From Armatimonadota bacterium (GTDB lineage Bacteria; Armatimonadota; Hebobacteria; CAIYQO01): a DNA stretch of 64,000 nt. The first letter of the stretch is position 1. Each line of letters opens with the position of its first letter. Location of the stretch: the NCBI GenBank assembly GCA_029553475.1, contig JAKPKV010000077.1, positions 1-64,000 on the forward strand, in the 5' to 3' direction. Below the pieces are notes generated by a model, which saw nothing but the letters and a program-made list of their open reading frames with translations, did not search any database and had not been told where the DNA came from. Position numbers and translations under genes: made by a program. This document shows positions 26,706 through 29,978 of this stretch, one piece after another.

Positions 26706-26756
26706 CAGCCAGTTTCATTCGGTGTAGACGGACACCTGTCCTGCCAGTGCGCGCTC

Positions 26757-26796
26757 CCGGAAGGAAATTCCCCCGTTCACGCGGAATACTTTCGGC
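26757..26796 (+). promoter_or_regulatory. GGCAGG / CGCGGAAA-type upstream module (variant)
   Basis: GGAAGGAAATTCCCCCG, then CACGCGGAATACTTTCGG, 20 bases before the DUF4253 gene start. It matches the order seen at 31221-31260. Confidence 0.45.
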
Positions 26797-26815
26797 CATT
26801 CCGGAGGATGATGGC

Positions 26816-27541
26816 ATGGGTCTTTTCACGCGGCTCTTCGGCGGCGGACGGCATCGTCAGGCGGTGGCGGAGTGCCTGGCGGCGTTTCCCTTTGCGGTGG
26901 AGGCGGCGCCGGGCGCGGCGGCGCTCGCGCGCATGGCGGAGCTGCGCAGCCCCGATTTCATCCCCATCCTGCTGGGCGACGCAGAGGATCTGCTCGCTCA
27001 CCACGCGCTGCTCGCCAAGGATCCCTACACCATGCGCGACCTCCTCGGCCGCGTACAGTCCATCGGCATGCCGGAATGGTGGCTCACCGCGCGCGCGCAC
27101 GCGCTGGAAGACCGCTTCGCGGAGGTGCTGGGCGCGTGGCCGGAGGAGCCGGCGCCGCTGGATACCGTGCAGGCCCTCTACGACGCCGACACCGGCGAGC
27201 CGCGCGCGGAAGTCTTCATCGCCCGCCTGCCGCTCGCGCGGAGCGCCGACGCTCCCGCGCTGCTGCGCTTCGGCGGGTGGAACGGCAGCCCCTTCCCGGA
27301 GGAGCACGTCGCCATCGCCCGCGCCTGGCGGGAAGAATTCGGCGCCGAGATCATCGCCGTCACCGCCAGGACGCTGGAATTCACCGTCGCCCGCCCCCCC
27401 GCCACCCGCGACGCCGCCGACGCGCTCGCCCTCACCCACTTCGCTTACTGCCCGGACATCGTCAACACAGGCGTCGGCACCCTCAGCAATCTCGCCGCCC
27501 GGTTGCTGAACGCGCCGAATTGGTGCTTCCGGTGGGAGTGA
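26816..27541 (+). CDS. DUF4253 domain protein
   Basis: Protein of 241 aa. The start ATG at 26816 is 8 bases after GGAGG. The C-terminal third carries the DUF4253 pattern: LLRFGGWNGSPFPEEHVAIA, EFGAEIIAVTARTLEFTVAR and HFAYCPDIVNTGVGTLSNLA, ending NWCFRWE. The N-terminal 140 residues are helical and not recognised. DUF4253 proteins are widespread (often actinobacterial), of unknown function, and sometimes linked to immunity-type loci. There is no signal peptide. It stands alone, 18 bases before an inverted-repeat-bounded nuclease element. Confidence 0.82.
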   Translation: MGLFTRLFGGGRHRQAVAECLAAFPFAVEAAPGAAALARMAELRSPDFIPILLGDAEDLLAHHALLAKDPYTMRDLLGRVQSIGMPEWWLTARAHALEDRFAEVLGAWPEEPAPLDTVQALYDADTGEPRAEVFIARLPLARSADAPALLRFGGWNGSPFPEEHVAIARAWREEFGAEIIAVTARTLEFTVARPPATRDAADALALTHFAYCPDIVNTGVGTLSNLAARLLNAPNWCFRWE

Positions 27542-27558
27542 CCGGGGGATGAGGGCGG

Positions 27559-27600
27559 CCCTCACCCCCCGGCCCCCTCTCCCAGCGGGAGAGGGGGAGT
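27559..27600 (+). repeat. 42-bp inverted repeat, left end of the DUF559 element
   Basis: CCCTCACCCCCCGGCCCCCT, then CTCCCAGCGGGAGAGGGGGAGT, including its own hairpin CTCCC-...-GGGAG. It is identical over 42 of 42 bases to the reverse complement of 28053-28094. Confidence 0.93.
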
Positions 27601-27618
27601 AACGGAGAGGAGGAGCGA

Positions 27619-28022
27619 ATGGATGCTGAGCATTATCGCGGTGGGATGTATTGTGCGGGATTGCTGGCGCGTATGCGGGAGTTGCGGGCGGCGCAGACAC
27701 CGGCGGAAGCGTTTTTTTGGGACATGGTGCGCGACCGGCGGTTTTTTGGATTGAAATTTCGGCGCCAGCACCAAATGGGGCTGTATATCGTAGATTTCTA
27801 CTGCCATGAGCGAAAGCTCGTGGCCGAGTTGGACGGCGCCGGCCATGATGAACCATCACAGCACACGTATGACATAAATCGCGACGATTATCTGCATTCC
27901 TTTGGCTGCACATTTTCCGCATCCCGAACGACTTCCTCCTTGCCAGCCCCGACCGGGTCTTCCGCGATCTCGCCGCCGTCCTCCATCTTCCCGATTATCC
28001 CTGGGAGCGGGAACGGAGGTGA
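27619..28022 (+). pseudogene. DUF559 (Vsr-like) endonuclease gene with a -1 frameshift
   Basis: The reading frame starts at ATG 27619 (site GGAGGAGCGA). It gives a normal DUF559 core: LRAAQTPAEAFFWDMVRDRR, FFGLKFRRQHQMGLYIVDFY and CHERKLVAELDGAGHDEPSQ, then YDINRDDYLHSFGC. Near 27905 one base is missing. In the next frame the expected C-terminus continues as HIFRIPNDFLLASPDRVF, RDLAAVLHLPDYPWERERR and a stop at 28020-28022. Without the repair the frame runs on through the right inverted repeat to 28113. The family is related to very-short-patch-repair nucleases; its role is unknown. The gene sits within perfect 42-bp inverted repeats. A sequencing error cannot be excluded. Confidence 0.87.
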
Positions 28023-28052
28023 AGCATCAACATCGGTTCCCGTCTTCCCGCC

Positions 28053-28094
28053 ACTCCCCCTCTCCCGCTGGGAGAGGGGGCCGGGGGGTGAGGG
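28053..28094 (-). repeat. 42-bp inverted repeat, right end of the DUF559 element
   Basis: Exact inverted copy of 27559-27600. The two ends delimit a 536-base unit that contains only the DUF559 gene. Confidence 0.93.
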
Positions 28095-28155
28095 TCGCGT
28101 TCGGAAAAGGTGATCCGCCACCCACACAGAATATCCGCACGTGAGGTATGCTCCC

Positions 28156-29790
28156 ATGCCGATACGTCTGCTGTGCCTCATGCTGCTGTTCGGCGCGCTG
28201 CTCCCCGGCCTCGCCGAGGAGCTCCGGTATTATTACACCGGCACCGTCAACGGCGCCCTCGCCGTGCAGATGGAGTTGTCGTTCGACGGCGACCGGGTAG
28301 AGGGGCATTATTTCTACGAGACGGTGGGCGCGGACCTCCGCCTGGACGGCAACCGCACGGGGACGGCGCTGGCGATGGAGGAGCTGGTAGACGGGAAGGT
28401 GACCGGCGGCTTCACCGGCAGGCTCTCCGCCGACCTGCGCGCGATCACCGGCTCTTGGGTCAATCCCGACGGCACGCGCAAGCTGCCGTTCACCGCGACG
28501 GCGGTGGCGCAGTATAAACCCGTTCTCGTGAAGAGGCCGGGGTACGAGCTGACCGGCCGCTACCCCGTCTTCCTCGGCGAGGGGGCGGCGCTGCAGGCGC
28601 TGACCAAGCAGCTCGGCTGGCGGGTGGCGGGGGCGCAGGCGGCTTTCCTGAAGGAGACGGTGCGCGCGCCGGACGTGGAGTACGTCGCCGATTTCACGCA
28701 GGAATACAGCATCGGCATCGCCTATTATCACCCCGAACTCATCAGCCTGCTCGTCCATGAATACGTGGACGCCGGCGGCGCCCACCCGAATCTGCGCTAC
28801 GCCTCCGCGAATTATGCAATCGCCGGCGAGCAGCCGCGGCTGCTCGGCCTGCGCGACCTGCTGCGCGGCGATAACCCGCAGGCGACGCTCTTCCCGCCGG
28901 TGAAGGCCGACCTGGACCGCCAGGCGACGGCGCGCGGCACGGCGGTGTGGGAGCTCTTCACCGCCGATGACCTGTCCGTGTACACCCTGCGGCCGGCCGG
29001 CTTCACCTTCTACTTCGCGCCCTACGTGGCCGGGCCGTATGCCGCCGGCCCGTACCAGGTGGCGCTGCCCTACCACGCGGTGATGACCGCCATCAACTGG
29101 GGCGGCCCGCTGCCCCTCTTCCTGCGGCTGGACAGCCCGGGCGCGAAGCCCGGCGTGGACCCGGTGACCGGCCTGGGGGCGGCGGAGGCGGCGAAGCTGG
29201 GCATGGACGCCTTCGCCGAACGCTACCTCCAGGCGGTGGGCTTCACCGGCGAGAACGCCACCGCCTGGATGGTACGCCAGGCGCTGGACACCTACACCGC
29301 GCTCAAGCACGCCTGGAATGATCGCGAGGCGAAGGCGCTGCCGGCGGCGAGGCACACCCAATATACCCGCGTCCGCGCGGTGATGGCGCGCCTGTTGGCA
29401 CACCGCTACGCCCTCGAATGGCTCACCTGCGGCGGCACCATCCTCTACGACTTCGCCGCCGATGACGCCGCCGGGCAGGCCGATACCCTCGGCGCGCTCA
29501 TTGACGCGCTGCGCCCGCCGGACGCCAAAGACCCCGCCGCCCGCGCGCTGGCGCGTGCCGACCTGGCCGCCGCGCAGGCCGCCGTCGCCGCCCGCCCGCG
29601 GACGGTAGCGGCGGAGGAGTGCCTGGGCGATCCGCAAGACTACGCCGTCCACCTCAGCGCCCTCACCCGCGCCGTCGCCGATGCCCACGCCCTCGCCCAA
29701 GAACTCCCCGACCGCGCCGCCGCCCTCCTCGCCGCCGTCACGCTGGAGATGGCGAAGCCGGTGGCTATTGGGCCGGATGAGGAGGAATGA
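28156..29790 (+). CDS. Secreted protein with DUF4163/DUF3298 (PdaC/RsiV-like) domains
   Basis: Exported protein of 544 aa. The start ATG 28156 lies after GTGAGG; a GTG at 28141 is an alternative. A signal peptide (about 1-25) is followed by an N-terminal beta domain (LRYYYTGTVNGALAVQMELS; DGDRVEGHYFYE). Next come a DUF4163-like region (YSIGIAYYHPELISLLVHEY, VDAGGAHPNLRYASANYAI) and a DUF3298-like region (FTFYFAPYVAGPYAAGPYQV). These pairs occur in PdaC, RsiV and lysozyme-binding proteins of the envelope. A helical, Ala-rich domain of 200 residues at the C-terminus is specific to this protein. Catalytic function is unlikely to be inferable. It is followed by repeat tracts T2 and T3. Confidence 0.75.
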   Translation: MPIRLLCLMLLFGALLPGLAEELRYYYTGTVNGALAVQMELSFDGDRVEGHYFYETVGADLRLDGNRTGTALAMEELVDGKVTGGFTGRLSADLRAITGSWVNPDGTRKLPFTATAVAQYKPVLVKRPGYELTGRYPVFLGEGAALQALTKQLGWRVAGAQAAFLKETVRAPDVEYVADFTQEYSIGIAYYHPELISLLVHEYVDAGGAHPNLRYASANYAIAGEQPRLLGLRDLLRGDNPQATLFPPVKADLDRQATARGTAVWELFTADDLSVYTLRPAGFTFYFAPYVAGPYAAGPYQVALPYHAVMTAINWGGPLPLFLRLDSPGAKPGVDPVTGLGAAEAAKLGMDAFAERYLQAVGFTGENATAWMVRQALDTYTALKHAWNDREAKALPAARHTQYTRVRAVMARLLAHRYALEWLTCGGTILYDFAADDAAGQADTLGALIDALRPPDAKDPAARALARADLAAAQAAVAARPRTVAAEECLGDPQDYAVHLSALTRAVADAHALAQELPDRAAALLAAVTLEMAKPVAIGPDEEE

Positions 29791-29830: not shown

Positions 29831-29867
29831 TCGTCATCATCGTCATCATCGTCGTCATCGTCGTCGA
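29831..29867. repeat. (TCGTCATCA)n-type tract T2
   Basis: Units TCGTCATCATCGTCATCATC, then GTCGTCATCGTCGTCG. T3 at 29950-29978 carries the complementary units, so the pair can fold over the 82 bases between them. Confidence 0.8.
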
Positions 29868-29949
29868 AGGATTGGACGTCACAGGTTGCAGGTTGCACTC
29901 GTCGGTATCGCGTTCTGTTGTCCGAAGTAGGGGGGATGGGTGGATGAAT

Positions 29950-29978
29950 ACGATGACGATGACGATTACGATGACGAG
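29950..29978. repeat. (CGATGACGA)n-type tract T3
   Basis: CGATGACGATGACGATTACG, then ATGACGAGG, facing T2. It lies 47 bases before the PstS-like gene. Confidence 0.8.

Follow-up and report, generated by a model that had tools for sequence, protein, structure and literature searches.

A frameshifted DUF559 nuclease gene between inverted intrastrand-triplex repeats, probably a copy of a widespread selfish element

Positions 27559-28094 of the 64-kb stretch of DNA analysed here (the window) probably hold a decaying copy of a selfish, widespread element made up of a triplex-motif arm, a DUF559 gene and a second, inverted triplex-motif arm, an arrangement resembling a REPtron in which a homing-type nuclease takes the place of the HUH transposase. 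We infer that DUF559 mobilises the repeats and that the cassette spreads itself.

Anatomy of the unit

The unit and its outer junction comprise the following features.

27559-27600, minus strand: left arm, an intrastrand-triplex repeat assigned to the TM/BoxC class, with a hairpin fold and a third strand of 11/11
Left arm blocks, in plus-strand coordinates: third block 27559-27569, loop 27570-27572, C-block 27573-27583, loop 27584-27586, G-block 27587-27597
27619-27908, plus strand: first part of the DUF559 gene, from its start to the frameshift near 27905, with the conserved E, D, ExDG and H residues present
27909-28022, plus strand: C-terminal part of the DUF559 gene in the other frame, aligned with the intact protein of the related genome G002
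28053-28094, plus strand: right arm, the left-arm repeat inverted, third strand 11/11
Right arm blocks: C-block 28056-28066, loop GCT 28067-28069, G-block 28070-28080, loop CCG 28081-28083, third block 28084-28094
28097-28140, no strand: outer right junction, where homology to the congener G001 begins at 28097; G001 has no arm here

The initial annotation, which was made from the window alone, described perfect 42-bp inverted ends, and 27559-27600 and 28053-28094 are indeed exact reverse complements; the arms extend ungapped to 51 nt at 94% identity (27555-27605 and 28048-28098). Within the 64-kb window there are two occurrences each of the hairpin pattern and of the 23-bp end, against 0.00 expected in shuffles. 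The hairpin ascribed to each end is likewise present, with 11 bp per arm, and beyond this plain hairpin lies a third block, GGGGGTGAGGG, which makes a triplex motif of a known class (BoxC/PIT/TM) that had gone unrecognised. Read on the G-strand, which for the left arm is the minus strand, the arm is CCCCCTCTCCC-GCT-GGGAGAGGGGG-CCG-GGGGGTGAGGG, so that after the G-arm and three further bases there follows a block that is the mirror image of the G-arm with one A replaced by T. A hairpin with a third block mirroring the G-stem, by which triplex repeats are recognised, was found at 11/11 in both arms, and by this block structure each arm is an intrastrand-triplex repeat of the BoxC/PIT/TM class. 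That motif was published with 9-nt blocks and with 23 copies in E. coli K-12, triplex formation by E. coli copies was shown in vitro, and no mobility gene was associated with the repeats (Holder et al., 2015, PMC4666352). The strict published TMECO pattern (9-nt blocks and a short, N3 second loop) does not match the window arm, because its blocks are 11 nt long, and lists other copies in the window's genome. An Rfam search gave sub-threshold, GC-rich chance matches only, and there is no GTAG tag beside either hairpin of the unit.

As the initial annotation had it, no protein family other than DUF559 lies between the arms (PF04480, E 1.8e-25, covering profile positions 5-84 of 109; 89.4 bits against a curated cut-off of 20.6). 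The frameshift that it placed near 27905 is real in this assembly, because the out-of-frame C-terminus at 27909-28022 (HIFRIPNDFLLASPDRVFRDLAAVLHLPDYPWERERR, then a stop) matches that of the intact relative in G002 (locus L045, YRIPNDLLLNAPDRALQDLAVV). The window copy has no intact reading frame and its G002 counterpart is intact; the frameshift may be due to decay or to a sequencing error, either being possible. The intact relative was modelled (pLDDT 86), and the model matches the structures of a Neisseria DUF559 protein (3HRL), I-Bth0305I (3R3P; Foldseek E 1.6e-4, profile search E 2.8e-5) and Vsr (1VSR), in keeping with the original label of a Vsr-like nuclease; the window protein has the active-site-type residues (E, D, ExDG, H), whose conservation is at least 97% among 175 relatives. 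On this model, DUF559 is a predicted nuclease that shares its fold with Vsr and with I-Bth0305I, an EDxHD homing endonuclease; its place in the EDxHD/PD-(D/E)XK group was already known (PMC9403480, PMC1189080).

The neighbouring genes, encoding a DUF4253 protein (26747-27541) and a DUF3298 protein (28141-29790), are both unremarkable. Just past the latter, at 29840-29960, lies a short tandem tract whose translation is poly-Asp from one strand and poly-Ser from the opposite one. The search for an empty site, proposed at the outset, could be made on the right, where homology to G001 begins at 28097 with no arm; the left side falls beyond the G001 contig, which stops near the junction, so that a clean empty site could be tested on one side only.

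Inverted arms flank DUF559 genes in many phyla

DUF559 genes in many bacterial phyla, and in one archaeal MAG, are flanked by inverted arms. We collected 175 DUF559 loci, consisting of the best 80 matches from a scan of 85,000 species genomes (GTDB), loci of the window's phylum and E. coli ycjD, the 80 GTDB loci, which rank highest against a query from this family, being no random sample. At each locus the 350 bp on either side of the domain were compared with one another and the best ungapped inverted repeat was scored, with a threshold of at least 16. This threshold was reached in 90 of the 165 loci with enough flank (55%; 36/74 GTDB-wide and 54/91 in the window's own phylum), counts that, like all association counts here, are inflated by shared ancestry and to which many metagenome assemblies contribute, as against 2/732 control windows (0.3%) shifted by 1-2.3 kb inside the same loci. 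None of 30 PIN-domain genes had such flanks. Y1 transposase genes of the same genomes, which served as a positive control, were flanked by inverted repeats in 14 of 30 cases, in line with published REPtrons and TIRtrons (PMC3733652), though of other sequence, and the CTCACC tag occurred at 1/30 Y1 loci versus 13/29 DUF559 loci. These figures bear out the suggestion that the unit is a nuclease cassette. The same annotation took that suggestion to fail should the repeat occur widely without DUF559 and DUF559 without the repeat, and taken literally both are the case, as most copies are solitary and no arm pair was found at 45% of the 165 DUF559 loci; the association nevertheless stands, because REP repeats and RAYT genes behave likewise and because the link is this strong.

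In other lineages the stems differ and the third block follows the stem (AAGGAGGGG with GGGGTGGTT, GGAGAAGGGG with GGGGTTGAGG, AAAGGGGGG with GGGGGGTAT), although in these pairs the hairpin was picked partly by its third strand, so that their counts are no test of covariation. When the hairpin was picked blind to the third block, a perfect third strand was found in 37/60 loci with 24 different stems, compared with 4.6 (maximum 11 in 2000 trials) when flanks were swapped between loci with different stems and 0.3 (maximum 3) when flanks were shuffled. These counts are comparative evidence that the arms are conserved for their ability to form a triplex rather than for one sequence; the triplex itself may form in the cell. 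The arms point outward from the gene in 37 cases and inward in 30. This near-balance speaks against transposition through ordinary terminal repeats and favours the view that every arm is recognised as a structure. No signal of sequence coevolution between arm and protein was seen (Mantel p 0.11).

Within the phylum sample, DUF559 was present in 35 of 43 genomes with a TMECO-type motif and in 78 of 158 without it (Fisher p 2e-4, confounded by ancestry). Eight TM-bearing genomes of this sample, three of them with at least 25 copies, had no DUF559 even by a sensitive profile, and a search for a DUF559-like gene in TM-rich genomes without PF04480 found none; the repeats can therefore persist without the nuclease, after its loss, or another mover exists. 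Three genomes, G099, G153 and G165, have 25-36 TM motifs and neither a DUF559 nor a DUF559-like gene. Among plasmids and phages few DUF559 carriers were found, and these were of no help in locating empty sites. In Pedobacter paludis (L143:2798-3500), a DUF559 gene sits between direct repeats of at least 100 bp, each with a hairpin, as if it had been inserted into a duplicated repeat. Our search of the open-licence literature found no paper that joins DUF559 and an inverted repeat, and our claim of novelty extends as far as that scope.

The window's own genome (G000) contains 62 matches to the arm end with up to 3 mismatches, against 3 for the reversed pattern. Here the arms also occur singly and in pairs without a DUF559 gene, and one 43-bp stretch is 100% identical to the window's arm. 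In G002, of the same family, locus L045 holds an intact unit with similar ends at an unrelated site, its protein being 59% identical. Some 40 bp downstream of the second DUF559 gene of the window's genome (L011:1320-1865; G000:C2:116472-116786) lies a double-hairpin repeat of 120 bp, with no counterpart on the other side. The same genome also carries about 50 copies of a sister repeat (CTCTCCCCCCGGCCCCCTCCCCT), without DUF559, as MITE-like two-hairpin units of 97-120 bp or as single palindromes (e.g., L028:1500-1625 and L032:1500-1550).

Insertions within genes and alleles in E. coli

From its distribution, the unit appears to move or to have moved, as it occurs at unrelated sites that include positions in frame within genes. 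At 18 loci, on contigs without read support, both arms and the DUF559 domain lie inside one open frame; Pfam finds a host protein around the insert in 11 of these, and three more read as HsdR. The hosts are HsdM, HsdR, HsdS, type ISP enzymes, the valyl- and leucyl-tRNA synthetases ValS and LeuS, and a Mur-ligase-like protein. In HsdM the insert lies at about position 235 of the N6_Mtase profile in five lineages (counting L098) and at 276 in one, in HsdR it lies between the N-terminal domain and the SNF2 domain, and in ValS and LeuS it stands immediately ahead of the conserved TTRP motif. The sharing of one profile position by five HsdM lineages, and of the site before TTRP by ValS and LeuS, may reflect either recurrent insertion or shared inheritance of an interrupted gene. 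A LeuS in a Sphingobacteriales MAG (L147:820-3339) has two DUF559 domains at different sites, and an HsdM (L096:1606-3798) contains, in addition to an in-frame DUF559 unit, another in-frame repeat farther on (translated RHSREGGNPE), near the site of the unit in the HsdM of L117. Between one pair of genes, a spacer of 48 bp in G132 and G060 corresponds to 783 bp, including a DUF559 unit, in G137.

In E. coli K-12, ycjD (1351407-1351760) encodes a DUF559 protein, and copy 9 of the TM/BoxC repeat (1351204-1351239) lies between fabI and ycjD, 168 bp from the latter; the open-licence literature on ycjD yielded no link to the BoxC/PIT/TM repeat. The median number of further TM-like places is 17 (11-26) in E. 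coli genomes that carry ycjD and 5 (1-14) in those that lack it, as counted from 60 rows spread across 5,393 E. coli records and confounded by phylogroup, which the presence of ycjD follows (PMC12817139). We rejected ycjD as a clean insertion, because strains of other lineages, which lack it, have the eefRABCD efflux operon at that place (PMC12817139). Downstream of ycjD in the K-12 fabI-ycjD region (L202:1404-1660) there is an apparent second copy of the ycjD 3' end, and the locus may therefore be a tandem remnant.

Pairs of TM repeats are also presence/absence alleles in E. coli, one of 110 bp at hrpB-mrcB and another of 186 bp at fepB-entC. A hairpin that stands alone at alx-sstT in Nissle 1917 is accompanied there by a second TM in K-12 (L317 vs L320); existing hairpins may serve as TM targets. 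No clear target-site duplication was found in the E. coli TM presence/absence alleles, and for single cases gain versus loss is unproven.

Competing readings and relation to known elements

If the preferred reading is correct, the nuclease would recognise the arms as duplex, hairpin or triplex, perhaps when they are single-stranded at a replication fork, and would cut or nick at the arms or at target sites, after which repair of the break would copy the whole unit, or a lone arm, into it. The dispersed BoxC/PIT/TM repeats would then be non-autonomous offspring of the element, as REPs are of RAYT transposases, and loss of the nuclease, as in the window, would strand them. The window copy would represent a late stage, with the nuclease out of frame and only the arms potentially active.

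Four other readings were weighed. DUF559 might serve the host as a nuclease in the processing of triplex or hairpin DNA, or of its own transcript, with the arms as regulatory or autoregulatory target sites and no mobility at all. The Caulobacter DUF559 protein VsrA, which causes DNA damage upon loss of cytosine methylation, does behave like a Vsr-like repair enzyme (PMC12907096), and covariation of the third strand shows only that structure matters; we nonetheless regard this as unlikely, given units in frame within unrelated genes with both arms in coding frame, units at unrelated loci, and presence/absence alleles. Quite unlikely, in our judgement, is that DUF559 is a passenger caught between triplex repeats that are in truth the terminal repeats of a trans-acting HUH (Y1) transposase of the RAYT/TIRYT group. 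The TIRs of TIRYT genes share GGGGWSAS (PMC3733652), which fits GGGGTGAG of the window arm, the window's genome has 10 Y1 genes, and the eight TM-bearing genomes without DUF559 would agree with such a mover. When this was tested with PF01797 in the same genomes, however, the repeats at Y1 genes proved to differ in sequence and in tag frequency, as given above, and the link to DUF559 persists over many phyla and many different stems.

It is very improbable that triplex repeats merely stall replication and so act as hotspots of breakage and gene capture, with DUF559 as common cargo. TM loci do show more rearrangement between strains of E. coli (PMC4666352), but PIN genes, which are small and mobile and no less common in these genomes, had such flanks in none of 30 cases, and Y1 genes carry other repeats. 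Assembly artefacts at repeats scarcely come into consideration: many loci do come from MAGs, and short-read contigs often end at such repeats, but units are present in isolates or complete genomes (Xanthomonas L160, Cedecea L154, Pontibacter L162, Methylomonas L117, E. coli K-12 ycjD, and the single-contig G122 and G070), and the gene and its arms form one uninterrupted stretch of about 500-800 bp.

Beyond the selfish element itself, we consider it possible, if somewhat short of probable, that these units form a new class of mobile element, in which an EDxHD homing-type nuclease recognises intrastrand-triplex DNA and spreads BoxC/PIT/TM repeats across bacteria, including in frame in essential genes, and in which the triplex is a selected, protein-recognised structure. 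BoxC/PIT/TM repeats were already known in E. coli in the 1990s, yet no function, origin or enzyme has been assigned to them; DUF559 is a candidate for the missing partner. DUF559 is in turn a very common nuclease domain whose role is mostly unexplained, and its pairing with the repeats makes both testable together, for instance in E. coli K-12, which carries both ycjD and the published TM copies. Should the nuclease act on the triplex, this would indicate that living bacteria make use of such structures. The in-frame insertions would also account for odd nuclease domains within restriction enzymes and aminoacyl-tRNA synthetases.

With the EDxHD homing endonucleases (I-Bth0305I) and Vsr, the units share the fold, the conserved residues and insertion into conserved genes; they differ in that no self-splicing intron or intein is seen, triplex arms are carried and many copies are intergenic. 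Rickettsia palindromic elements are palindromes tolerated in frame within protein-coding genes, like the units here; unlike these units, they are not known to contain a nuclease gene. Classical IS elements and MITEs differ from the window unit, which lacks a transposase, and from the E. coli TM alleles, which lack a clear target-site duplication, and ordinary terminal repeats differ from arms that face inward about as often as outward. In REPtrons and TIRtrons, a RAYT or TIRYT Y1 transposase gene is flanked by REPs or TIRs (Di Nocera et al., 2013, PMC3733652), and as in the present case an enzyme gene stands between inverted palindromic repeats that have many solitary or paired copies elsewhere in the genome; here the enzyme, the unit's only gene, is a PD-(D/E)XK/EDxHD nuclease instead of an HUH/Y1 transposase, the GTAG tag is missing, and the repeats are of the triplex type, unlike those at Y1 genes of the same genomes. 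The closest likeness of the arms themselves is to BoxC/PIT/TM, with which they share the order of C-block, loop, G-block, 3-nt loop and second G-block, and dispersed copies often in inverted pairs; the blocks in the window are 11 nt long and other phyla have many other stems with a covarying third strand, and whereas no partner gene is known for the published repeat, the repeat in the window stands on either side of a nuclease gene.
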